Below, piece after piece: positions 22,365 to 36,748 of a stretch of DNA of 64,000 nucleotides (position 1 is the first letter of the stretch; each line of letters begins with the position of its first letter). The position numbers and the translations under genes were made by a program. The stretch spans positions 137,693-201,692 of the forward strand of contig NZ_JAUIRR010000004.1 in the NCBI RefSeq assembly GCF_030577135.1. The letters are read 5' to 3'. The notes under the pieces were generated by a model, which saw only the letters and a program-made list of their open reading frames with translations, was not told where the DNA came from and did no database searches. This DNA is from Sulfurimonas sp. hsl 1-7. Lineage in GTDB: Bacteria; Campylobacterota; Campylobacteria; Campylobacterales; Sulfurimonadaceae.

Positions 22365-23735
22365 ATGGCAGATACAACACAAATAATCACCCTCTATACA
22401 GAACTGGCAAATAATCCACAAAAAGATTTTGGATGGGACAAAGGTCTTGAAAACGCCAAAGCTCACGGTTATAAACAAGAATGGATTGAGAAACTTCCTT
22501 CTGAGGTATGGGAGTATTGTGCCGCAGTAGGTAATCCTTTTACTTTGGGTGAGATTCATGAAGGAGAGAGTGTTGTTGATCTTGGATGCGGTGCAGGTGT
22601 TGATTTACTTGTAAGCGCATTAAAAGTAGGAGATAAAGGTCAGGCAATCGGCATAGATATAACTCCAAAAATGGTTGAAAAAGCAAAATATCACGCTGAA
22701 CTTGCCGGACTTACAAATGTAATTGTAAAAGAATCTAGCTTTGATGATACCGGTCTTGAAGAAAACAGCATAGATGTTGTGATCTCAAATGGAGCGATTA
22801 ATTTAACGGGTTGTAAAGAGAGTGTCTTTGCTGAGATTCACAGAATACTAAAACCTAATGGAAGGTTGATGTTCGCAGATATGATCGATATTACGGAAAA
22901 TTCAAGTGAGTGTTGTTCCAAAGAGCTAACTGCTTGTTGTTCTTCTGAAAAAGAGGATTGGGCTAACTGCGTCGCCGGAACATTACGCAAAGATGAACTA
23001 CTCAACATAATGAAACAAGCCGGTTTTGAAAATATTGAATTTGGGGGCTTAACACATTACACAACAGCCGAAACCACTCAGGGAGCCCTCTTTAAAGCCA
23101 CCAAAAAACCTTTAGATGAAGTACGTCAAAATTACTGGAATAACTTTTTTAATACAAGAGATTATACTCAGGTACTATGGCACCAGACACATCCAAGCAG
23201 ATCGCTCGAACAGATTCAACAATATGCATCTAAAGATGATGCCATTATAGATGTTGGCTGCGGGGCATCTTTACTTGTTGACAACTTGATCGCAGATGGG
23301 TATAAAAACATCTCTTTACTTGATGCAGCTCATGAACCTTTAGAAACTGTCAAAAAAAGACTTGGTGAGAATGCAGAGATCCCTACTTTTAACTGTTCAG
23401 ATATTGTCAACTTCAAACCGAAGCAAAAATTTAAAGTCTGGCATGACAGAGCGATGTTTCACTTTTTACTAAACAGTTCGGATAGAAAAAAATATTTTGA
23501 GGTATTAAAGGAAAGTTTACTACCTGATGGAATAGCAATCATAAATACTTTTGCACTAAACGGAGAGACAGAGTGTGCTGGTTTAAAAACAGCACAATAT
23601 AGCAGCGATATTATCAAAAATGAGTTGCCTAAAGGTTTGAGTTTGGTTAAAAGTGAAGAGTTCATCCATATTACACCAAAAAATACTGAACAAAAATATT
23701 GTGCATTCTTTATAAAACCGGATAATGAAGCATAG
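22365..23735 (+). CDS. ArsM-like methyltransferase fused to a second SAM methyltransferase
   Basis: A 456-residue double enzyme. Domain 1 (about 1-250) resembles arsenite methyltransferase ArsM: SAM motif VVDLGCGAGVDLL (about 69-81), FDDTGLEENSIDVVISNGAINL, and ANCVAGTL at the place of an ArsM cysteine. The cysteine normally in the SNCVINL motif is replaced (SNGAINL). A cysteine cluster ECCSKELTACCSS sits near residue 182. Domain 2 (about 262-455) has another SAM motif, IIDVGCGASLLVDNL, and WHDRAMFHFLL, as in small-molecule methyltransferases. It is divergent from the TetR-exporter operon. Arsenic or another thiophilic element is a possible substrate, but the changed cysteine makes that uncertain. 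Confidence 0.75.
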   Translation: MADTTQIITLYTELANNPQKDFGWDKGLENAKAHGYKQEWIEKLPSEVWEYCAAVGNPFTLGEIHEGESVVDLGCGAGVDLLVSALKVGDKGQAIGIDITPKMVEKAKYHAELAGLTNVIVKESSFDDTGLEENSIDVVISNGAINLTGCKESVFAEIHRILKPNGRLMFADMIDITENSSECCSKELTACCSSEKEDWANCVAGTLRKDELLNIMKQAGFENIEFGGLTHYTTAETTQGALFKATKKPLDEVRQNYWNNFFNTRDYTQVLWHQTHPSRSLEQIQQYASKDDAIIDVGCGASLLVDNLIADGYKNISLLDAAHEPLETVKKRLGENAEIPTFNCSDIVNFKPKQKFKVWHDRAMFHFLLNSSDRKKYFEVLKESLLPDGIAIINTFALNGETECAGLKTAQYSSDIIKNELPKGLSLVKSEEFIHITPKNTEQKYCAFFIKPDNEA

Positions 23736-23763
23736 AAAATTAAGTAAGGAAGTTTAAAATAGA

Positions 23764-23838
23764 TGGTGGTCACGATTGGACTTGAACCAACGACCACTTC
23801 CATGTCAAGGAAGCACTCTACCACTGAGTTACGCGACC
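23764..23838 (-). tRNA. tRNA-Val (anticodon GAC)
   Basis: A 75-nt cloverleaf on the minus strand: acceptor GGTCGCG pairs with CGTGACC, followed by A and an encoded CCA. Anticodon stem CTTCC/GGAAG encloses loop TTGACAT, giving anticodon GAC (Val, GUC/GUU). The T arm GTTGG-TTCAAGT-CCAAT is intact. Confidence 0.95.
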
Positions 23839-25650: not shown

Positions 25651-26208
25651 CTACTTTTTAGTAGCCTTTGTTAGATACATCCAAATTAATCCCCCGATAC
25701 TAAAAACAATCACCGGTGCTAACCATTTATTATCAGATATATACAGTGCAAAGGCCTTAAGCGGTGCTCCGAAAAAGTAACTTGCAAGCCCGAAAGCAAG
25801 TGCCCATACAGCCGCTGCAAAAAAGTTCAACACTGCAAACTTTTTAAAATCATACTTTGTAAGTGCAATTGCGATCGGAATAATCGTTTTAAGACCATAG
25901 ATATATTTTTGAATAAATATAACCCAGTCTCCGTGTTTTTTCATCATCATATGAGATAGTGCCAGTTTACGTCTATGTTTTCTAAGCCCCTCCATCATCA
26001 TGTGCTTTTGATTTCTAGTCAACCAAAACAGCAGTACATCACCAAGCATATTCCCCATAAAAGCGACAGCCATTGAAGTTGCCAAATCCATTTTTCCCAT
26101 GTAACTCAGCACTCCTGCTGCAATAAGTCCAACAAACCCACCGCCAAGTGAGTATAAAAATAGTGCTATATATCCGTATGTAGCTAAAGAGCTAAATGTT
26201 TCTTCCAT
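25651..26208 (-). CDS. DedA-family membrane protein
   Basis: A 185-residue protein with about four to five hydrophobic segments. The DedA/SNARE-associated pattern is present: an early GGGFVGLIAAGVLSYMGKM, then FMGNMLGDVLLFWLTRN, a basic middle loop, and FIQKYIYGLKTIIPIAIALTKYDFKKF. DedA proteins are linked to lipid carrier flipping and membrane homeostasis; the specific role here is unknown. It follows uvrB by 15 bp on the same strand with ribosome site AAGGAAAA, so it may be transcribed with it. Confidence 0.85.
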   Translation of the reverse strand: MEETFSSLATYGYIALFLYSLGGGFVGLIAAGVLSYMGKMDLATSMAVAFMGNMLGDVLLFWLTRNQKHMMMEGLRKHRRKLALSHMMMKKHGDWVIFIQKYIYGLKTIIPIAIALTKYDFKKFAVLNFFAAAVWALAFGLASYFFGAPLKAFALYISDNKWLAPVIVFSIGGLIWMYLTKATKK

Positions 26209-26223: not shown

Positions 26224-28206
26224 TTATAATTGTTTTATTTTTGCGATTTCGTCACGCAGGCGAGCAGCTTCTTCAAAGTTTAACTCTTTTGCAGCTTGTT
26301 TCATTTTTAATGACAACTCTTTTACTACTGCTTTTTTCTCACTAGCGGGCATTTTATCCATTTTTTTGTGTTTTTGATAAAGTCCGCCACCATCTTCAAT
26401 CTTCAAGTTTTCATCGAGTGTTCTTTTCGTTGTTTTTGGAGTGATGCCGTGTTCTTTATTGAAATTCTCTTGCACTTCACGTCTGTGTGCTGTTGTATCC
26501 ATAGCTCTTTGCATCGAACCTGTCACCTTATTTGCATACAAAATTACACGACCGTTTTCGTTTCTTGCCGCACGTCCGATCGTCTGAATCAGTGCCGTTT
26601 CACTTCTTAAAAAGCCCTCTTTGTCGGCATCTAAAATAGCAACTAAACTTACCTCAGGCAAGTCCAAACCTTCACGAAGCAAGTTAATTCCGATCAGTAC
26701 TTCAAACTCTCCAAGTCGTAATGAACGGATGATCTGGTTCCTCTCGATCGTATCTATATCGGAGTGCATATACTGTACTTTTATTCCAAGGTCTGCCAAA
26801 TATTTTGTTAGAGCTTCTGCCATTTTCTTTGTAAGAACCGTAATCAAAACACGTTCATCTTTTGCAACTGTTTTCTTGATCTCATCGTGAACATCTTCCA
26901 CTTGATTGTCTGATGGTTTTACCTCAACGATCGGATCAAGTAACCCTGTAGGACGGATGATCTGTTCTGCTTTTACGGCAGAGAGTTCCAGTTCATACTC
27001 ATTTGGTGTCGCTGAAACAAAAAGATAATGTGGTGCTTTGTGGATGTACTCATCAAGTTTTAATGGACGGTTGTCAAGCGCTGAAGGGAGTCTAAAACCA
27101 TACTCAACCAACACCTCTTTTCTCGCACGGTCTCCTGCATACATTCCACGGTACTGAGGTAGTGATACGTGCGATTCATCTACGATCACAAGATAATCTT
27201 TATGATTCACTTCAAAGTAATCTAGCAATGTAAAAGGTGCTTCACCGGGCTTTTTATTTGTCAAAAGTCTTGAATAGTTCTCGATCCCTTTACACATCCC
27301 TGTAGTTTCCAGCATCTCTAAGTCAAACTCTACACGTTGTTTTAAACGCTGATATTCAACAAGTTTACCCTCTTTTTGAAAGTACTCAAGCCTCTCGTCA
27401 AGTTCCTCTTCAATTCTCTTAATTGCTACAGCCATCTTATCTTGAGAGACGCTAAACTGACTTGTTGCATAGATCGTAAAACTTTTATGCTCTTCTAGTT
27501 TTTTGTTATCGATTACATCAAATGTATAGATAGATTCGATCTCATCTCCAAAAAACTCGATACGGATCGCTTCTTGTTCAAAATAAGGTGGATACACATC
27601 AATAGACTCACCGTTTACACGAATATGACCGCTGTCAAAATAACTGTCATTTCTGCTATATCCCATCTCTACCAAACGAAGAAGAAGCTGTTTTTGATTG
27701 ATCTCATCCCCAACTTCAATAGCTTGGACCATCGTCATATATTCTTCTGGATCCCCCAAACCGTAGTTAGCAGAAACCGACGCGATCACAATAACATCAT
27801 CATATGAAAGCAGATTAGCCGTCGAACTTAAACGAAGACGCTCCAACTCATCATTGATTGCACTGTCTTTTTCAATAAAAAGATCTTGACGAGGGATGTA
27901 AGCTTCAGGCTGATAGTAATCGTAGTATGAGACAAAGTACTCTACATGATTGTTTGGGAAAAACTGACGAAACTCAGAATAAAGCTGTGCTGCCAGTGTT
28001 TTGTTATGGGTCATAATGATCGTAGGACGTTTTACTTTTTCAATAATTCGCGCCATTGTATGGGTTTTTCCACTACCTGTTACACCTTCTAGTGTTTGGT
28101 ATTGGTTCCCGGCCAAGATGGAGTTGGCTAATTTTTCGATCGCTTCTGGCTGATCCCCTGCCGGCTGATATGGTGATACTACTGTAAAATTCGGTTCTTT
28201 TTTCAT
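26224..28206 (-). CDS. uvrB: Excinuclease ABC subunit B
   Basis: A 660-residue helicase-like subunit of nucleotide excision repair. Visible are Walker [13 protein letters not shown] (about 41-52), the damage-probing beta-hairpin [12 protein letters not shown], helicase motifs including [13 protein letters not shown] and IGRAARN, and a C-terminal UVR motif [18 protein letters not shown] that contacts UvrA/UvrC. Length matches the family. A TATAAT lies only 8 nt before the ATG on its strand and no ribosome site is seen, so the mRNA may be leaderless. Confidence 0.98.
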
Positions 28207-28213
28207 AAATCGA

Positions 28214-28219
28214 ATTATA
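28214..28219 (-). promoter_or_regulatory. -10 box TATAAT close to uvrB start
   Basis: On the minus strand TATAAT ends 8 nt before the uvrB ATG (TATAATTCGATTTATG). Transcription would begin at or next to the start codon, and no Shine-Dalgarno is present. Confidence 0.5.
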
Positions 28220-28257
28220 ACTAAATGGGGACAATAAATATTTTAAGTCTTTTTGTA

Positions 28258-28263
28258 TATAAT
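28258..28263 (+). promoter_or_regulatory. -10 box TATAAT for the DctP-LivK gene
   Basis: TATATAAT-like box 31 bp before the ATG at 28294, in the 87-bp divergent gap shared with uvrB. Confidence 0.4.
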
Positions 28264-28293
28264 TAAATCCTATATATTATAAAGTGATTCATA

Positions 28294-30450
28294 ATGAAAA
28301 AAATTGCTACTCTTTTTCTAATACTACTTGTAACTATTTTAATAGTTTGGGCATTCTACTTGTCTCTTGGTAAAGATGTCATGCCATCTACAGTAAAAAA
28401 GTCTACAAACAATGATCTAATACATTTAAAATTTGGACACAATACTCCCGTGGACAGTGCTTTACATGAAGCATCCGTAAAATTTGCAAACGAGGTAAAA
28501 CGTAAAACAAACGGGAAAGTCGTTATAGATATATTTCCAGCGCAACAATTAGGAAACGACCATCAGATGGTAGAGATGGCAAGAGATGGAGAGATCGATA
28601 TCATCTTGACACCTACGGCAAAGATGAGTGTAGCAGTTCCTTCTATACAATATGCCGATCTGCCGTTTTATTTTCCGACACGTCAAGACGTATACGATAT
28701 GTTAGACGGCGAACCGGGAGAGATGATACTTCATAAACTAAAGTCTATCGGACTTATCGGCGTTTCATTCTGGGAAAATGGTTTTAAACACTTTACTGCA
28801 AATGAACCTATCCTTTCGGTAGAAGATTTTAAAGATAAAAAAATCCGTGTTATGAAAAGCCGTATTATTATGGAACAGTTTAAGTCATTTGGAGCAGAAC
28901 CTGTTCCGATAGACTTCTACTCTACAAAACAAGCACTGCATGACAAAGTTGTAGACGGGCAGGAAAATCCTTTAGTAGCCATAGTAAGTATGGGCTTTCA
29001 TAAGGAGCAGTCCGATCTTACATTAAGTGAGCATGCATATCTTGGATATGTATTATCTTTCAGTGAAAAAACATTTAATAAGCTTCCCCAAGATATTCAA
29101 ATGATACTTATCGATACAGCTAAAGAGGTTACTCCGTGGGAAAGAGAAGAGACACAAAGACGTGAAGCAAAACTTTTAGACACAATCGAACAAAGTGGCG
29201 TCCGTATTCATCAAATAAGTGCTCTAGAGCGTCAAAAATTTGCAGCAAAAACAGCTCATATTCCGGGACAATTTGAAGAGATTATCGGAGTAGACACTAT
29301 CTCAAAGACTCAAGAGTTGCTATATAACAAATACGGAGTAAATTTCAAGTTTGACGATCATATCCTAATAGGGATAGACACTGATGTCTCGGTAGACTCA
29401 AAAGTTGCCGGTTTAGCCATAAAACGTGGAGCTGAATTAGCCGTTGAAGAGATCAATAGCAAAGGCGGTGTACTTGGAAAACCTCTAAAAGTTATCGTCA
29501 AAGATCATAGAGCTATTGCCAGCAGAGGGATCCAAAATGTTCAAGAATTCGCTAAAAACAAACATCTTGCAGCTATCATTGGAGGAGTTCACGGTGCTGT
29601 AATATCAGCAGAGATGGATACTATCCAAGAACTAAAAGTACCTTATTTAATTCCTTGGGCTGCTACGGCGGGAATTGTACAAAACGGCTATGAAGATAAT
29701 TATATTTTTCGTGTATCTGCGAATGATAAACTAGCTTCTGAATATATCGTAAAGTATACAACACAAAAATATTCAAGACCAGCTATTATAGTTGAAAACT
29801 CTGTCTGGGGTAGAAGTAATCTAAAACTAATGAAGCAGTATTGCAAAAAACACAATATTATAGATGCTATTGAAATTGTTTTCAACCGTGGACAAAACAG
29901 TTTTGACAAAGAGATTACTCAAGTTGTAAATTCACAGGCAGATTCTGTTATTATGGTTGCAAATCCATTAGAAGCTTCAAAAATACTTCAAGCGTTGTAC
30001 GTTCAAAAGAAAACTTTACCTATAGTTTCCCATTGGGGTATTACAAGTGGAGATTTTTTCCAAAAGAATGAAGATATTTTAAAAGAGTTAAATTTAAGCG
30101 TGTTTCAGACATTCTCTTTTGACGGTAAGTTAAATGCTAAAGGGAAACATCTTTTAGATAACTATAAAAATAGATATATGGTAAAAAAATCTGCAAACAT
30201 TAAAGCACCTATTGGAGTTGCTCAAGCTTATGACATTGTTTATCTGTTAGCTCTTGCCATTGAAAAAGCGGGAACGACTGACAAAGTAAAAATCAAAAAT
30301 GCACTTGAGAATTTACCAAACTATCAAGGGGTTCTTAAAAACTATACTCCGGCTTTTAGTAAAAAAAGACATGATGCGTTAGACGGTAAAGATTATTATA
30401 TGGCAAAATACAATCAGGATGGTCATCTTGTACCAATTAAAAATAAATAA
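28294..30450 (+). CDS. Double periplasmic binding protein: DctP-type fused to LivK-type
   Basis: A 718-residue protein. An N-terminal hydrophobic segment (about 5-25) is a signal anchor. Residues ~45-350 are a TRAP DctP-type binding domain: QQLGNDHQMVEMARDGEIDI, the ligand-arginine region KKIRVMKSRI (about 182-191) and DGQENP (about 221). Residues ~355-710 are an ABC branched-chain amino-acid type domain (Peripla_BP_6): AGLAIKRGAELAVEEINSKG, GGVHGAVISAEM and PIGVAQAYDIVYLLALAIEK. No TRAP or ABC permease gene is nearby. The next gene, 18 bp on, is a membrane GGDEF-EAL protein, so it may be a ligand sensor rather than a transport component. Domains are clear, role is inferred. Confidence 0.85.
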   Translation: MKKIATLFLILLVTILIVWAFYLSLGKDVMPSTVKKSTNNDLIHLKFGHNTPVDSALHEASVKFANEVKRKTNGKVVIDIFPAQQLGNDHQMVEMARDGEIDIILTPTAKMSVAVPSIQYADLPFYFPTRQDVYDMLDGEPGEMILHKLKSIGLIGVSFWENGFKHFTANEPILSVEDFKDKKIRVMKSRIIMEQFKSFGAEPVPIDFYSTKQALHDKVVDGQENPLVAIVSMGFHKEQSDLTLSEHAYLGYVLSFSEKTFNKLPQDIQMILIDTAKEVTPWEREETQRREAKLLDTIEQSGVRIHQISALERQKFAAKTAHIPGQFEEIIGVDTISKTQELLYNKYGVNFKFDDHILIGIDTDVSVDSKVAGLAIKRGAELAVEEINSKGGVLGKPLKVIVKDHRAIASRGIQNVQEFAKNKHLAAIIGGVHGAVISAEMDTIQELKVPYLIPWAATAGIVQNGYEDNYIFRVSANDKLASEYIVKYTTQKYSRPAIIVENSVWGRSNLKLMKQYCKKHNIIDAIEIVFNRGQNSFDKEITQVVNSQADSVIMVANPLEASKILQALYVQKKTLPIVSHWGITSGDFFQKNEDILKELNLSVFQTFSFDGKLNAKGKHLLDNYKNRYMVKKSANIKAPIGVAQAYDIVYLLALAIEKAGTTDKVKIKNALENLPNYQGVLKNYTPAFSKKRHDALDGKDYYMAKYNQDGHLVPIKNK

Positions 30451-30468
30451 AAGAAAGAGTAATTAAAT

Positions 30469-32730
30469 ATGGGTTTTTTACTAAGATCATTAACTTTTAA
30501 AAGTATAAAAATAAGAGTGGTAGTTCTTATCAGTGCTCTTATTGCTTTTGCTCTTTTTTCCATAACATTACTTGTATTGTTCATTGTCAACTCCCATATG
30601 AGTGCTCAAATGAATACACTTCTAAAAACAAGAGCACACTCAATTTATGAAAAACTTGATCAAAGGATAGGTTATTTAATAGATAACAGTGTTCTATTAA
30701 CAAAAAATGAACTCATCGTTAATTCTCTTATAGATAAAAACGGTAGAAAAACTTACCTGCCCCCTTTAGTAGACAACTTTATGAAAGGGAAAGATGTCCT
30801 TTACTTAAACATTGTCGACTTTGACGGCAGGGCAATTTTTCAGACGCAAAAAGACATACCCCTTTACAACCAATCTACAAGACTCAGAGCCGCTCTTGCT
30901 CTAGGAAAAGTATCTTACTATATCAAAGATGGTGATGATAAACTAGTGATCATTGCACCGATCGAGTACTACAACACAACACAGGGTGCAGCTATAGTCG
31001 TATTTAAAATGGATGAAATAGCAAAAAGAGTTTTAATAAATAACGATGATATATACATAAAACTCTTTCATGACAATAAAAATATTTTCTCATTGAACTT
31101 TCAAAAAGATATAACCTACCATTCATCTTTACATACGGTAGAGAATGATTCGTTTTTAAAACAACTAGATGTAGTTCTAGAGATAGGGGTCCCTAAAAAG
31201 ATATATATGGCTCCACTGCAAGATATATTTTTAAAACTCTTAATTCTTGGAGTAGTATTTATTTCAATTGGGATGATCTTGTCAAATATGTTGGCTAACG
31301 GTATTACAGATCCAATTCTTACACTTTTTAATAGAGTTAAAAATTCCGATCACAAAAGTGAAGTGTTTTGTAGCCCACTGGGAACCCATGATGAGCTAGA
31401 GGAACTTGCCAAAGCATTTGATGAACGTTCACTCCTGCTGCAACACCAGGCACAGTACGATGCGTTGACAGATCTTCCAAACAGGGTCCTATTTCTTGAC
31501 AGACTCGAACAGAGTATAAAAAGCACACTGCGTACTAAAGAAAAATTTGCCGTTTTATTTATTGACCTCGATCACTTCAAAGAGATTAACGATTCTTTCG
31601 GCCATGATTTTGGCGATAAACTCTTAATAATAGTTGGGGAATATATTGAAAGTATTGTCAGAGAAAGTGACTCTGTTGCTCGTATGGGTGGTGATGAGTT
31701 TACGGTATTACTCAATGATTTGCATAATGAAAACGATATTATTAATATCCTGCAAAAAATCATGCAGCTATTTACAAAACCGTTTGTGATTGCACATCGT
31801 CAATTTTATGTCACATGTAGTATTGGGATTGCGCTTTATCCTCTACATGGGAAAACTCCTGAAGAGTTACTAAAAAATGCTGATGCGGCAATGTATAAAG
31901 CAAAAGACAAAGGTCGAAATACTTATCAGTTCTATACCAACGATATGACTGAAAAAGCCTATGAGCGTATAACTTTAGAGACACAACTAAGAGAAGCGAT
32001 TGTCAACAGAGAATTTGAGGTCTATTTTCAACCGCAGGTAAATATTAACGACAATAAGATCATCGGTATGGAAGCTCTTATAAGATGGAATCATCCGGAA
32101 GTTGGTTTAGTACCTCCAGGAAAGTTTATCCCATTAGCTGAAGATACGGGACTGATTGTTGAGATAGACAGACAGGTTATGCAAGATGCAATGAAACAGT
32201 TTCAAGAGTGGATTGATCTTGGGCTTGAAGTGGGTATCTTATCTATAAACCTTTCAATGATACAACTTAACCATGAAGATTTTATAGATTTTGTTAAGAC
32301 TACTATTAAAAACACAGGAATATCTACAGAAAACCTAATGTTTGAAGTAACGGAAACACAGGTCATGAAAAACCCTAAACAAGCTATCATTATGCTTCAG
32401 CAACTTAAAGATATCGGTATAAAACTTGCCATTGATGACTTTGGAACAGGACACTCTTCTCTTTCTTATATTAAAAAGTTACCGATAGACAAACTAAAAA
32501 TAGATCAATCTTTTGTTATGGATGCATTAGTCGATAAAGATGATAGAGAATTAACAAGAGCTATTATCTCTATAGCCAACAGTTTAAATCTTGAAGTTAT
32601 TGCCGAGGGTGTAGAAACGAAAGAACAAGCGGAATTTTTAGTTAAAAACGGATGTGTTGAAGCACAAGGTTATTTCTATTATAAACCTTTGGATGTTATA
32701 ACTCTGACGAAAATATTAACAAAGAGCTGA
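30469..32730 (+). CDS. Membrane GGDEF-EAL c-di-GMP protein with periplasmic sensor
   Basis: A 753-residue protein. Two membrane segments (about 18-42 and 250-272) flank a ~205-residue periplasmic Cache-like domain; a HAMP-like linker follows. The GGDEF domain (about 330-490) has an intact GGDEF (RMGGDEFTVLL) and the RxxD inhibition site (RESD five residues before). The EAL domain (about 505-750) keeps EALIRW, NLS, EVTET, DDFGTGHSS, KIDQSFV and EGVET, so it should be an active phosphodiesterase. Net direction cannot be read. It probably works with the double binding protein encoded just before. Ribosome site AAAGAAAGAG. Confidence 0.92.
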   Translation: MGFLLRSLTFKSIKIRVVVLISALIAFALFSITLLVLFIVNSHMSAQMNTLLKTRAHSIYEKLDQRIGYLIDNSVLLTKNELIVNSLIDKNGRKTYLPPLVDNFMKGKDVLYLNIVDFDGRAIFQTQKDIPLYNQSTRLRAALALGKVSYYIKDGDDKLVIIAPIEYYNTTQGAAIVVFKMDEIAKRVLINNDDIYIKLFHDNKNIFSLNFQKDITYHSSLHTVENDSFLKQLDVVLEIGVPKKIYMAPLQDIFLKLLILGVVFISIGMILSNMLANGITDPILTLFNRVKNSDHKSEVFCSPLGTHDELEELAKAFDERSLLLQHQAQYDALTDLPNRVLFLDRLEQSIKSTLRTKEKFAVLFIDLDHFKEINDSFGHDFGDKLLIIVGEYIESIVRESDSVARMGGDEFTVLLNDLHNENDIINILQKIMQLFTKPFVIAHRQFYVTCSIGIALYPLHGKTPEELLKNADAAMYKAKDKGRNTYQFYTNDMTEKAYERITLETQLREAIVNREFEVYFQPQVNINDNKIIGMEALIRWNHPEVGLVPPGKFIPLAEDTGLIVEIDRQVMQDAMKQFQEWIDLGLEVGILSINLSMIQLNHEDFIDFVKTTIKNTGISTENLMFEVTETQVMKNPKQAIIMLQQLKDIGIKLAIDDFGTGHSSLSYIKKLPIDKLKIDQSFVMDALVDKDDRELTRAIISIANSLNLEVIAEGVETKEQAEFLVKNGCVEAQGYFYYKPLDVITLTKILTKS

Positions 32731-32792
32731 TACTACTTTGAACTACCAATAAACTGGACAAACATCTAAAGATAGTTCAAAACACTATCAGC
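32726..32792. repeat. Nested imperfect inverted repeat after the GGDEF-EAL gene
   Basis: GCTGATA (32726) pairs with TATCAGC (32786), and inside them TTTGAACTA (32737) pairs with TAGTTCAAA (32773), separated by 4-nt mismatched segments, with a 27-nt loop. It overlaps the GGDEF-EAL stop codon. It may be an RNA hairpin ending the transcript or a relic of a mobile element; no transposase is nearby. Confidence 0.45.
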
Positions 32793-32795
32793 ATT

Positions 32796-32839
32796 GAGAG
32801 AATTGCCCACTGAAATATAAAATTTCAATAGGCATCTCT
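32796..32839. terminator. Possible bidirectional terminator hairpin
   Basis: TGCC...GAAAT-ATAAA-ATTTC...GGCA forms an imperfect hairpin between two convergent genes. No clear T tract follows on either strand, so this is tentative. Confidence 0.3.
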
Positions 32840-32846
32840 ATAAAAA

Positions 32847-33410
32847 TTAAAAAATGTATTTAATCCCTGCATAAACACTTGACCCGCGAACTGAATCGAT
32901 AGTGCTGCCTTCATACTCTACTAATGCTTCATAATGCTCATTGATATGATACTCTACACCTGCACCATATACCATGCCGTTGTCATTTAGATCAACATTA
33001 AGTTCATCGATTTTTTCATGTTCAAACTCGTATCCAAGTTTTCCCATAATCCCGATACTGTGAGTTAGAGGATATGTATATGTAACGTCTGCTGCATATG
33101 TCCAGTATTTTGCAACGCCGTTTACAATGTCAACACCGTCATCTTCAGTTACATCATTTTTACTATATGATGTATCAAGTTCAACCGCAAAGTGGTATGG
33201 TAGAGTATAACCAACATCAATACCCAAACCACGACCTGCTTTCCCATCAAGTGTGATATCTGTACCCTCTTTTATAGTCTCACCTGTAGTATATAGACCT
33301 TTTACAACTACGTAAAACTCACCAGACTTAGCATGATGATGCTCTTCTGCCATGATTGTTGATGCACAAATCATTAATGCAGACGATGCAAGTGCTATTT
33401 TTTTAATCAT
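32847..33410 (-). CDS. Small outer-membrane beta-barrel protein
   Basis: A 187-residue protein with a signal peptide (about 1-21, ALMICASTIMAE). The mature part begins with EEHHHAKSGEFYVVVKGLY, a histidine-rich start, then eight alternating strands typical of OmpA/Opa-like porin-family barrels (GRGLGIDVGYTLPYHFAVELD, GVEYHINEHYEALVEYEG). It ends in a terminal phenylalanine (VYAGIKYIF). It probably sits in the outer membrane as a small structural or adhesion barrel. It lies between two c-di-GMP modules but has its own strand position and no known link to them. The HHH segment could bind metal. Confidence 0.78.
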   Translation of the reverse strand: MIKKIALASSALMICASTIMAEEHHHAKSGEFYVVVKGLYTTGETIKEGTDITLDGKAGRGLGIDVGYTLPYHFAVELDTSYSKNDVTEDDGVDIVNGVAKYWTYAADVTYTYPLTHSIGIMGKLGYEFEHEKIDELNVDLNDNGMVYGAGVEYHINEHYEALVEYEGSTIDSVRGSSVYAGIKYIF

Positions 33411-33532: not shown

Positions 33533-35833
33533 TTATATTCGGACTTGGTTTCGCCCATTTTCTTTTGCTTCATAGAGTTTTTCATCAGCTCGAGTTATAG
33601 TTTGTTTAATATTTTCACCCTCATTATGTATAGCAAGACCGAAACTACAAGTAAGCGTTGATATATCTTTAAAGTAATGGTTTTGAATTTTTACTCTAAT
33701 ATGTTCAGTCATTTGTTGAAGACTCTCTTTGGAGTCTACACGTGTAACTATAATAAACTCTTCACCACCCCAGCGTATAAGATGATCATATTTACGGATC
33801 TCCTCTTTTACAACCTGAACTAAAGCGATTAAAACATCATCACCCACATCATGTCCGTAGGTATCGTTGATCAATTTAAAATGGTCTATATCAAAGAACA
33901 CTATTCCGGTTTTTGCATTGTTATCTTGATTTAACTTCATTATATTTTTTATATTCGTTTCAAAATATACACGGTTGTGTGCGCTTGTAAGTTGGTCACG
34001 GTTGAGTTGTCTTTCAAGCTGCAGCCTTTCAAGCATCGAGTCACTTATATCATTAAACTCAACTACATAATTTTCATTATTATACTTGTTGATTGTGACA
34101 CTAAAAGCATGAGGAGTCGCAGTACTGTCTAACATAGAGACGATTCTTTGTCTTCTGGAAAGATTTAACAAACTCTCAATCCAATGCTCCTCCCCCTCTT
34201 TCACATCTTTTAAAGAGAAGAAACCTTCATGATCTATAAAACGTTCACATATACAGTCATACTTTTCTTTAAATGCTTTTAGGTTTTCAAAGCCAAAAAA
34301 ATGGTAAAAACTTTTGTTTGCAAATTTAAACTGCTTACCATCTGTTAAAACAACTATCGAGCTTTGAAGGTCAATAAACTTTTCCAAATTTTCATATGCT
34401 GCTGCTCTTTCCGTAATATCATAAAGACTGCCAAAGCTTTTAACAATGTCACCGTTACTGTTTAATTCATGACTTCCATGTTCCTCTACAAAACGTATCT
34501 CCCCATCCTTTGTCACGATACGATGATGTATCTCATAGGTAGTTTTGTTTTTAATCGATTCCGTGTATGCCTTGTGTACTTTTTTACGGTCCTCAGGGTG
34601 TACAAGTGATAAAAACGCTTTATATGAAGGTCTGAATGTTTCAGGCGTGATATCAAGGATCTTATAGACCTCATCAGTTAAATAAAACTTTTGTTTTATA
34701 TGATCGTACGTTAAAGAACCGAAATGAGCAATTTTTTGTGCATGATAAAAAGAGTCGTTTATTGCTTGCAATCTATATCTATTTTTACGTAATTTTTCAA
34801 TCTGATATAAAATTATAAATAACAATATAAACATCACTGCACTTATTACAAATGCAATAATTTTATAGATTAAGTACTCATGCTGTATATCTAATATCTC
34901 ATTTTGTAAACTAAAGGAGATCAAATACCCGGCATGTTTTTGATCAGTATTTACAAAACTGATAAAGTTAACTGTATACCCTTTGTCGTTATCGATAATA
35001 GAGACCGAAAAATCTTTGTGTTCCTGAAGTTCCTCATAAAAGTGAGGAGATTGTTTTGCTAATTCAGTCAATTTTGACACAAGTTTATTTTCTGAGTTAC
35101 GCTTTGTAATAGCTGATATTTCAGGATTCTCTATATAATAGTTTTTATCAAAATCCGATATGGAGATCAATCCTCTATGCCACTTAAATACTTTGTCGTA
35201 ACTTTCATGCTTTGTTACAATCAATGCAAAAACAGAGTTTGGCATCAGTTTACTTAGTTTTGCTTCTATCCCTTCAAATGCGATCGAGAACTCCGCACTT
35301 CCTAGATATTCACCTTTATCTATTATTGGAAAAACATATCTGTAACCTGAGAAGAGCCTTCCCCCTTCAAACCCTATCACTTGTTTATGTTCACGATTCA
35401 CCATTTGAATAGACTTTCTTAAATCTATAAGAGAATCCCCGTTTTCACAAGGCATATTCATTCGCAATAAACTTTTTCCATCATCAGTATGTATATGAAA
35501 CTGACGTACATACATCCCTTTCATCGCATCATATGATTTATATAAAGCCCTGTAGAGTTTTCCTCGTAGAAGATTGCGTTTTTCTTCACTTTTAGAGTTT
35601 TTAAAACTGTGTAACAGATTCATCACAGTATCGTTATGTAAAAGAAAATTAAAATCTTTTTGACCTGCAACCTCATAAGTATTTATAACACCGTTATAGG
35701 TTGCCTTAGTAGTTAGAAGCGCATGGTGATTATAGTCAACTATCGCCACCTCTTTCATATGATCCAGATATTTAAATAAACAAAATACGAAAACAATAAA
35801 AACAATAGAACTAAGGAGAACCTTTTTTATCAT
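33533..35833 (-). CDS. Diguanylate cyclase with dCache and PAS domains
   Basis: A 766-residue membrane protein. Membrane segments at about 5-22 and 325-347 enclose a large periplasmic domain of the dCache_3 type (VRQFHIHTDDGKSLLRMNMP, then GYRYVFPIIDKGEYLGSAEF). A PAS_3 domain follows (FYLTDEVYKILDITPETF...SLVHPEDR), then a weaker PAS, then the GGDEF domain (about 600-766) with active GGEEF (RWGGEEFIIV) and an RxxD inhibition site (RKYD). It should make c-di-GMP in response to a periplasmic signal. Its ATG overlaps the stop of the PhnD-like gene (ATGA), so the two are translationally coupled. Confidence 0.92.
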   Translation of the reverse strand: MIKKVLLSSIVFIVFVFCLFKYLDHMKEVAIVDYNHHALLTTKATYNGVINTYEVAGQKDFNFLLHNDTVMNLLHSFKNSKSEEKRNLLRGKLYRALYKSYDAMKGMYVRQFHIHTDDGKSLLRMNMPCENGDSLIDLRKSIQMVNREHKQVIGFEGGRLFSGYRYVFPIIDKGEYLGSAEFSIAFEGIEAKLSKLMPNSVFALIVTKHESYDKVFKWHRGLISISDFDKNYYIENPEISAITKRNSENKLVSKLTELAKQSPHFYEELQEHKDFSVSIIDNDKGYTVNFISFVNTDQKHAGYLISFSLQNEILDIQHEYLIYKIIAFVISAVMFILLFIILYQIEKLRKNRYRLQAINDSFYHAQKIAHFGSLTYDHIKQKFYLTDEVYKILDITPETFRPSYKAFLSLVHPEDRKKVHKAYTESIKNKTTYEIHHRIVTKDGEIRFVEEHGSHELNSNGDIVKSFGSLYDITERAAAYENLEKFIDLQSSIVVLTDGKQFKFANKSFYHFFGFENLKAFKEKYDCICERFIDHEGFFSLKDVKEGEEHWIESLLNLSRRQRIVSMLDSTATPHAFSVTINKYNNENYVVEFNDISDSMLERLQLERQLNRDQLTSAHNRVYFETNIKNIMKLNQDNNAKTGIVFFDIDHFKLINDTYGHDVGDDVLIALVQVVKEEIRKYDHLIRWGGEEFIIVTRVDSKESLQQMTEHIRVKIQNHYFKDISTLTCSFGLAIHNEGENIKQTITRADEKLYEAKENGRNQVRI

Positions 35834-36660
35834 TTCATATTCCCCTCTTTTGGTATCTCACAATCTATATTTAAACTATCATATAATTTTGTATCTGCAG
35901 GTACTACACCATATCTTAAACTAAGGTCCCACTTTTCATAAGTTGTTTTTGGAATACTTAAAAGTGTATAGGTAAGCTTTGTGATCTCTTGATCTGAAAG
36001 CGTTTTTTTATTGACAACTATAGTAAATCCCGGAAGCAGTTCACTTACAGCTACAATATCCATACCGAGTGATTCATACTGCTTAGCAATAGCTTCGGTT
36101 GAGCCGGCAAGGACAAACTCCTCTCTCATTACAGAAGTTAATGCATTTGTATGTGACATTGTATAGTTATACAGCTGCTCTTCAAGGGCAACTCCAAATT
36201 TTTTCTTTAGCAGTTTTCTTGTAGCGTAGTAACCGCAGGTAGAAAGCGGCTGTGTAAGTGCAATCTTTAATTTTTTATCAAAATCAATCTTATCTTCACT
36301 AAATTTAGATAGTGCACATCTATAAAAAGCTTTTCCATCTTTTTGTTTAAATGAAACGATCGGTTCAATATCTGGATATTTTGATTTTAATATTGCATAT
36401 GGTAAAGGTCCAAGATAAGCTATATCGATGGTTCCATCTTCAAAACCTTTTAAAATATCTTCATAGTTATTTTGATAGTTAAACTTGATGGTTAAGGAGC
36501 TGTTCTTTTGCAGGTAGTCTATAAGAGGGATAAAAGCTTGAATAGTTTTTTGCTCATTTTTCATAGGCAGGGGAGAAAAATAAATCTCCCTTTTTTGAGT
36601 TGCTAAAAGTGGTATTGACAATAGAACTATAAAAAGAAGTGTTCTTTTAACAAGGCTCAT
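35830..36660 (-). CDS. PhnD-like periplasmic binding protein
   Basis: About 276 residues. A signal peptide (MSLVKRTLLFIVLLSIPLLA) is followed by a phosphate/phosphite/phosphonate binding-protein domain (PF12974 type): IYFSPLPMKNEQKT, YEDILKGFEDGTIDIAYLGPLPY, STCGYYATRKLL and VVNKKTLSDQEI. An upstream TTG at 36678 is open, but the ATG at 36660 has AGTAGGT before it and gives a clean signal peptide. No ABC permease or ATPase gene adjoins. It overlaps a diguanylate cyclase gene by 4 bp, so it probably delivers a ligand signal to that sensor. The ligand is unknown. Confidence 0.85.
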   Translation of the reverse strand: MSLVKRTLLFIVLLSIPLLATQKREIYFSPLPMKNEQKTIQAFIPLIDYLQKNSSLTIKFNYQNNYEDILKGFEDGTIDIAYLGPLPYAILKSKYPDIEPIVSFKQKDGKAFYRCALSKFSEDKIDFDKKLKIALTQPLSTCGYYATRKLLKKKFGVALEEQLYNYTMSHTNALTSVMREEFVLAGSTEAIAKQYESLGMDIVAVSELLPGFTIVVNKKTLSDQEITKLTYTLLSIPKTTYEKWDLSLRYGVVPADTKLYDSLNIDCEIPKEGNMK

Positions 36661-36748
36661 TTTACCTACTTTTATCAAATTAATTTGATTGTAACTAAAA
36701 AATATATAATCAAATCTTAATTGAATCTAATAAATCCACTTTAATTTT

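Follow-up and report, generated by a model that had tools for sequence, protein, structure and literature searches.

A conserved pairing of a DctP–LivK fusion protein with a dCache-like membrane receptor, probably a two-input sensor

The fusion protein described here is encoded in a 64,000-nucleotide stretch of the genome of Sulfurimonas sp. hsl 1-7 (contig NZ_JAUIRR010000004.1, positions 137,693 to 201,692), referred to below as the window. It joins two solute-binding proteins (SBPs) in one chain, a DctP of the tripartite ATP-independent periplasmic (TRAP) transporters and a LivK-type protein of the ATP-binding cassette (ABC) transporters, and is followed by the gene of a membrane receptor with GGDEF and EAL output domains. 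The cassette of fusion and receptor is conserved, and the periplasmic domain of the receptor stays constant while its outputs are exchanged. The fusion is probably a two-input sensor. We consider it likely that it serves as a membrane-anchored periplasmic co-receptor of the next gene's product, with two Venus-flytrap domains for different ligands that are read by the dCache-like domain of the receptor. The window's genome has a size of 2.28 Mb and is 99.99% complete. The pair consists of the following elements:

28294..30450, + strand: DctP-Peripla_BP_6 fusion, 718 residues (open reading frame (ORF) list, Pfam, alignment, structure model)
28294..28368, + strand: N-terminal hydrophobic helix, residues 1–25, probable membrane anchor, no lipobox cysteine (model)
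28432..29262, + strand: DctP (TRAP solute-binding) domain, residues 47–323, containing R185 (Pfam, fold, alignment)
29368..30423, + strand: Peripla_BP_6 (LivK-type) domain, residues 359–710, with W455, W505 and W581 (Pfam, fold, alignment)
30451..30468, + strand: spacer of 18 bp between the fusion and partner genes (ORF coordinates)
30469..32730, + strand: partner, a membrane receptor with GGDEF-EAL output, 753 residues (ORF list, Pfam)
30589..31203, + strand: dCache-like periplasmic domain, about residues 41–245, the constant part of the partner (alignment, reverse search, model, fold)
31450..31920, + strand: GGDEF domain, residues 328–484, with GGDEF at 407–411 and the I-site RESD at 398–401 (Pfam, motifs)
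31984..32688, + strand: EAL domain, residues 506–740, with EALIR, N, EVTET, DDFGTG, K and AEGVET present (Pfam, motifs)

Both halves of the fusion score far above their Pfam cut-offs: the DctP half matches PF03480 with 263 bits (cut-off 23.4) and the LivK half PF13458, Peripla_BP_6, with 120.6 bits (cut-off 31.7). The predicted structure has a mean predicted local distance difference test score (pLDDT) of 91.6 and a predicted template modeling score of 0.88. It contains a single N-terminal helix (residues 2–25) as well as two folded domains and a linker modeled with low confidence, which bears out an earlier note on this DNA that had read tandem DctP and LivK-like domains behind one N-terminal anchor. 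Residues 1–45 of the fusion contain no cysteine and hence no lipobox; the modeled helix is a probable membrane anchor that presumably stays uncleaved. A frameshift or misassembly as the source of the fusion was rejected, since all 45 full-length aligned homologs match DctP and Peripla_BP_6 in one frame. Promoter and terminator signals in positions 28150–32900 were no more frequent than in shuffled sequences.

Only the fusion, and not its partner, served as the query for homologs. A scan in which each species was represented by a single genome yielded 60 loci: 39 with full-length fusions (one of them cut by a contig end), one with a broken piece (L067), one with DctP only (L070), and 19 ordinary TRAP loci (L071–L089). 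The 45-row alignment combines the scan fusions with the window and six loci of relatives; counts over it leave aside L061, where the contig ends inside the fusion, L067, which is also at a contig end, L070, the ordinary TRAP loci, and the fusions that are broken (G151 and G021) or cut by contig ends (G189 and G192). A set of 53 fusions additionally includes L164–L167 and L174–L177. The 45 aligned fusions come from Campylobacterota and several groups of Pseudomonadota. Among 228 genomes of the window's family, 18 carry full-length fusions in 19 places, four further ones carry cut or broken fusions, and two matches were only ordinary DctP. A sample of 397 genomes spaced evenly across the class includes at least six with a full-length fusion. 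These genome counts are lower bounds, because only some candidates were scored per genome: up to four in the family, five in the gammaproteobacterial search, and two in the class. No solved chain spans both halves among the matches listed (60 of 111, and 47 in another listing). The joining of two SBP families is thus unusual, as the earlier note had stated. A DctP-Peripla_BP_6 fusion was not found described in the literature searched by title and abstract opening, a search that subscription papers mostly fell outside.

The same-strand gene directly downstream of the fusion carries the N-terminal half of the receptor in 45/45 fusion loci (43/43 by phmmer with the window's partner, L068 by alignment, and the window itself), so the conserved pairing that the earlier note proposed to look for is present throughout. 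The SBP gene is adjacent to and co-directional with a membrane GGDEF/EAL receptor in 26 of these loci, the window included. Counted from the first start codon, the gap between the two genes ranges from -65 to +79 nt, with a 4-bp overlap in 13 of the 45 loci; gene starts and gaps are approximate, because ORFs were chosen by our own scripts (greedily by length, from the first start codon), which also supplied the transmembrane (TM) counts and small hidden Markov models.

The reverse search leads back to the fusion. In the 228 family genomes the receptor domain matches 22 places, of which 21 adjoin a fusion: 19 beside full-length fusions in 18 genomes and two beside fusions cut by contig ends. 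Genome G024 has two fusions, each with its own partner. The 22nd match is partial (44.7 bits, to the HAMP-side end) and has no fusion beside it. Seventeen receptor matches were found in 369 gammaproteobacterial genomes, which include four known fusion carriers; eight lie beside a fusion, six beside an SBP with a LivK domain only, and three (42.6–44.7 bits) beside neither in the few kilobases read around each. In total, a LivK-only SBP precedes a distantly related receptor in seven loci, six gammaproteobacterial ones and L168, and these receptors score 38–100 bits with the receptor model (42–79 bits in the gammaproteobacterial scan). At one locus (L169:3417-8190, the same as L070), a DctP-only relative, which shares 60% identity with the DctP half, adjoins a kinase receptor from this receptor family and a REC-HD-GYP gene; by sequence, its LivK half was naturally lost or never present.

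The partner in the window matches GGDEF with 183 bits and EAL with 257 bits. Its GGDEF, I-site RESD and EAL motifs, read in the sequence, are all intact. The earlier note was thus right that a membrane GGDEF-EAL protein with both catalytic motifs and a periplasmic domain is encoded 18 bp downstream. In the model of the partner (pLDDT 89.6), two TM helices enclose a long N-terminal helix and a pair of PAS-like modules. Its periplasmic part matches dCache_1 over residues 45–189 with 24.8 bits, below the cut-off of 45; dCache_1 is matched at E ≤ 0.001 in 41 of the 45 partners, with scores seen of 19.8–34.6 bits. The fold resembles KinD (Z 17.1, 189 residues aligned, 3.1 Å), DctB (Z 17.0, 193 aligned, 3.2 Å), and LuxQ from the LuxP-LuxQ complex (Z 14.1, 177 aligned, 3.2 Å). 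When solved structures were searched with a sequence profile of the receptor domain, two matches came back (E 0.45 and 0.73), neither a sensor. Twelve periplasmic residues are invariant in an alignment of 38 receptor rows; four of these, R140, Y168, T170 and Q172, are located within or close to the first PAS-like module.

Behind the constant receptor domain, the outputs differ. The partners in the 45 loci comprise 26 GGDEF-EAL proteins, 18 kinases, and one protein cut by a contig end (L056); REC was matched in 17 and Hpt in 16 of them by Pfam. Twenty-five partners match GGDEF and EAL, including L066, whose frame is broken inside EAL. In L054 the gene falls into two pieces, and GGDEF and EAL are encoded by the next frame. 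The GGDEF motif is letter-perfect in 21 of 25 homologous partners and the E-x-L of the EAL motif is present in all 25, although the sequence of L066 stops short of the later EAL motifs. Kinase partners are followed by a REC-HD-GYP gene in 7/18 loci (L043, L044, L045, L048, L049, L050 and L068), by a REC-GGDEF protein in 2/18 (L092, and L063 with one short ORF between), by a REC-kinase or hybrid kinase in 5/18 (L052, L053, L055, L057 and L065), and by other gene types in 2/18 (L037 and L059). The remaining two, L046 and L062, are unreadable at contig ends, so that an HD-GYP or GGDEF response regulator follows in 9 of 16 readable kinase loci and would be the target of the preceding kinase. Enzymes of cyclic di-GMP (c-di-GMP) turnover are reached in 35 of 42 assessable loci (26 + 9). 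The earlier note's proposal that the signal passes to c-di-GMP turnover fits these loci; it falls short in that the constant partner is the dCache-like domain and not GGDEF-EAL, and with 18/45 partners being kinases, a universal c-di-GMP output was rejected.

Parsimony on a receptor-domain tree that includes LivK-only and DctP-only rows requires at least four changes between kinase and GGDEF-EAL; the tree is a quick one of 58 rows with long branches, from which L056, L177 and L181 were left out. Fusion partners and LivK-only partners are split across one branch of it (Shimodaira–Hasegawa-like approximate likelihood ratio test 96), whereas LivK-only rows are interspersed with fusions in the unrooted LivK tree. 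Amphritea, Oceanospirillum and Thiomicrorhabdus cluster with Campylobacterota in both trees, some forks being weak, as expected if the pair moves together. We therefore tentatively extend the co-receptor model, though we would not favor the extension as a whole, to a mobile, output-modular sensor. Its two-SBP chain might detect the coincidence or ratio of two compounds, one an organic acid and the other amino-acid-like or aromatic, its receptor head would be mounted on GGDEF-EAL domains or on phosphorelays that mostly end in c-di-GMP, and the pair would have moved between Campylobacterota and Gammaproteobacteria.

The idea that the fusion senses two classes of ligands is suggested by its retained folds and pocket residues. 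R185 of the DctP half aligns with an arginine in 5/5 DctP chains compared and, judged by the aligned ranges, probably occupies the position of SiaP Arg147. In the TRAP family a conserved arginine holds the ligand carboxylate (PMC5812351). The best solved DctP relatives among the matches listed are 4ovs and the sugar-acid binder 7bbr. The closest fold to the LivK half is 4q6w, a Bordetella SBP solved with 3-hydroxybenzoate (Z 44.6, 359 residues aligned, 2.2 Å), and the fold search further returned several binders of amino acids and aromatic acids. Of the 53 fusions, 49 retain R185, and W455, W505 and W581 are present in 47, 46 and 47 of them and in 7/7 LivK-only relatives. This shared tryptophan triad suggests, within the fusions and LivK-only relatives compared, that their LivK halves form one subfamily tied to dCache-like receptors. 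The four fusions without the arginine are second copies in Magnetococcales (L164–L167), whose LivK tryptophan positions are altered as well. The partners of L164, L165 and L167, when scanned, had no recognized output domain after PAS, and a receiver-bearing gene follows them.

In the co-receptor model, a carboxylate would be the ligand of the DctP half, and the LivK half would recognize an amino-acid-like or aromatic compound. The partner's dCache-like periplasmic domain would read the open or closed state of both Venus-flytrap domains; in the window's genome it would set the balance of diguanylate cyclase and phosphodiesterase activities, and in other genomes it would feed a phosphorelay, with a response of either sign conceivable. 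By analogy with NspS-MbaA and LuxP-LuxQ, the dCache-like domain is the most likely docking site of the liganded fusion. LivK may be the docking half, because LivK-only relatives occur; DctP may be, because it is the better conserved half (mean distance 0.41 versus 0.59) and because of the DctP-only locus L169.

Several observations weigh against a co-receptor with two working sensors. The docking half is ambiguous, as LivK-only and one DctP-only variant both occur, and the link to the LivK-only pairs is weak, because their receptor scores are partly no higher than those of the SBP-less matches. The Magnetococcales paralogs have lost the DctP arginine and pocket tryptophans (W455 in three). LuxQ is not the best fold match of the receptor; KinD and DctB, which score higher, bind ligands themselves, and the invariant residues of the receptor could form a ligand pocket of its own. 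The pairing would also be expected of a receptor that does no more than react to these nutrients as well. Distances of fusion and receptor correlate (0.79 and 0.78), which indicates co-inheritance only; as evidence of coevolution the correlation was discarded because it does not discriminate, the GGDEF domain correlating nearly as well in the GGDEF-EAL rows (0.84 versus 0.86).

A narrower form of the co-receptor model, in which only a single half senses and its companion is a docking adaptor or relic, draws on these single-domain variants (LivK-only SBPs by distant receptors, the DctP-only SBP by a closer one), on the paralogs with eroded pockets, and on the unequal conservation of the halves. 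A relic would hardly be expected to keep both pockets over two phyla, as the retention of R185 and W455 in most fusions indicates, and we regard this form as rather unlikely. Less probable still is direct ligand binding by the dCache-like domain, with the fusion serving simply to buffer or present nutrients and forming no specific complex with the receptor. It would agree with the direct binders among the closest solved folds, KinD with pyruvate and DctB with succinate, and with the invariant residues around the first PAS-like module. However, in the family scan the domain occurs only beside the fusion, bar the one partial match, and 14 of 17 gammaproteobacterial matches adjoin a fusion or a LivK-only SBP.

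The fusion could also be a transport SBP for a TRAP or ABC permease encoded elsewhere, with the adjacent receptor having a regulatory role only. Both halves belong to transport SBP families, and the window's genome has a single DctM, with a presumed DctQ, on another contig (C5) with no DctP match nearby; the other DctP of this genome (C1:529589) could, however, serve that DctM. The LivH/LivM-type permease PF02653 is absent from the genome (0 of 1, with 12/14 controls positive), in which the fusion is the only Peripla_BP_6 protein above the cut-off. DctQ and DctM models matched in 0/45 fusion loci (flanks averaging 6.3 kb upstream and 7.2 kb downstream) and in 19/19 ordinary TRAP loci, eight of which had been used to train the models. 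The earlier note had seen no TRAP or ABC permease near the pair and had suggested looking for them beside homologs: TRAP permeases are linked to none of the 45, and Pfam found no permease among seven neighbors in the window between 22365 and 38535 (nine window proteins scanned). The sole ORF with at least three TM segments in 18.3–53.1 kb, by a crude hydrophobicity count, encodes a VTT-domain protein (25651-26208).

Within 8 kb of the 45 fusions, 59 of 481 ORFs are multi-TM, five of them partners. The other 54 contain no TRAP or PF02653 protein among the matches listed (25 of 66 Pfam families), nor do ten of them that were chosen by size and read singly, four of which matched no family. ABC membrane proteins near the fusions include one BPD_transp_1 in L068, about 5.6 kb away, and one ABC-2 in L091; MacB/FtsX occurs in three and ABC_membrane in one of the multi-TM neighbors among the matches listed, and none is a regular neighbor. 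With the DctM on another contig, no PF02653, and DctQ/DctM in none of the fusion loci, a transport role was rejected as the principal explanation. The pairing of the fusion with one receptor domain across phyla also argues against such a role, which we hold to be very improbable; the fusion is probably not part of a nutrient pump.

Other SBP genes also adjoin receptor genes. In the window at 33533-36678 (- strand), a PhnD-type SBP gene (PF12974, 125.7 bits) overlaps a dCache_3-PAS-GGDEF gene by 4 bp and has no adjacent phosphonate permease; ORFs resembling this pair, by the ORFs alone, occupy the same place in L090 (14927-18072). On contig C1 of the window's genome (about 396,932-400,274; L192:6933-10275), a gene for a Peripla_BP_4 SBP (153.9 bits) overlaps that of a PAS-GGDEF protein for which two TM segments are predicted. 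Judged from these genes, several SBPs in this small genome seem to be coupled to c-di-GMP enzymes. In a gammaproteobacterial symbiont (L037:12690-15922), a PhnD-type SBP and a sensor kinase directly follow the fusion and its kinase partner, making two SBP-receptor pairs in a row. Apart from these, the window contains a match to the Rfam antisense RNA family HPnc0260 at 23667-23838 (+ strand; 64.9 bits, cut-off 59), opposite a tRNA-Val on the - strand.

The conserved pair and its natural single-domain variants offer a way to learn how a cell merges two nutrient signals when it decides on biofilm or motility, and which SBP face talks to the dCache-like receptor. Orphan DctP and LivK genes of this kind would also be a warning against annotation as transporters.

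To our knowledge, few SBP-driven c-di-GMP systems have been characterized. In LuxP-LuxQ, the SBP docks on a periplasmic domain whose fold is related to that of the receptor described here; LuxP is a single domain for autoinducer 2 and LuxQ a kinase, whereas the fusion adds a DctP-type domain and the output of its receptor varies. BvgS-type kinases carry Venus-flytrap domains in tandem, fused to the kinase, with no second gene. Venus-flytrap domains of such kinases are reported to act in signaling (PMC5829827), and of the PBP-clan families in c-di-GMP networks only SBP_bac_3 has been studied, according to a review (PMC8846402). A close parallel is NspS-MbaA of Vibrio cholerae, in which SBP occupancy switches a GGDEF-EAL protein between cyclase and phosphodiesterase (PMC8967002); the system reportedly also occurs in Sinorhizobium meliloti (PMC9993111). 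Both pairs comprise a periplasmic binding protein and a membrane protein with GGDEF and EAL, but NspS is one polyamine-binding SBP, whereas the fusion has two SBPs of unrelated families. The V. cholerae diguanylate cyclase CdgH likewise combines tandem SBP domains, with different amino-acid preferences, and a c-di-GMP enzyme (PMC5431781); there, both domains are PBPb and lie inside the enzyme chain with no separate co-receptor, whereas the SBPs of the window are separate from the enzyme and unrelated to each other. Each half of the fusion is a clear member of its family, DctP of TRAP or LivK of ABC transporters, by sequence and fold, but the two stand in one chain and no cognate permease was found for them. 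The pair is best read as a variant of SBP-dependent signaling, with two unrelated SBPs in one chain and no linked TRAP permease.

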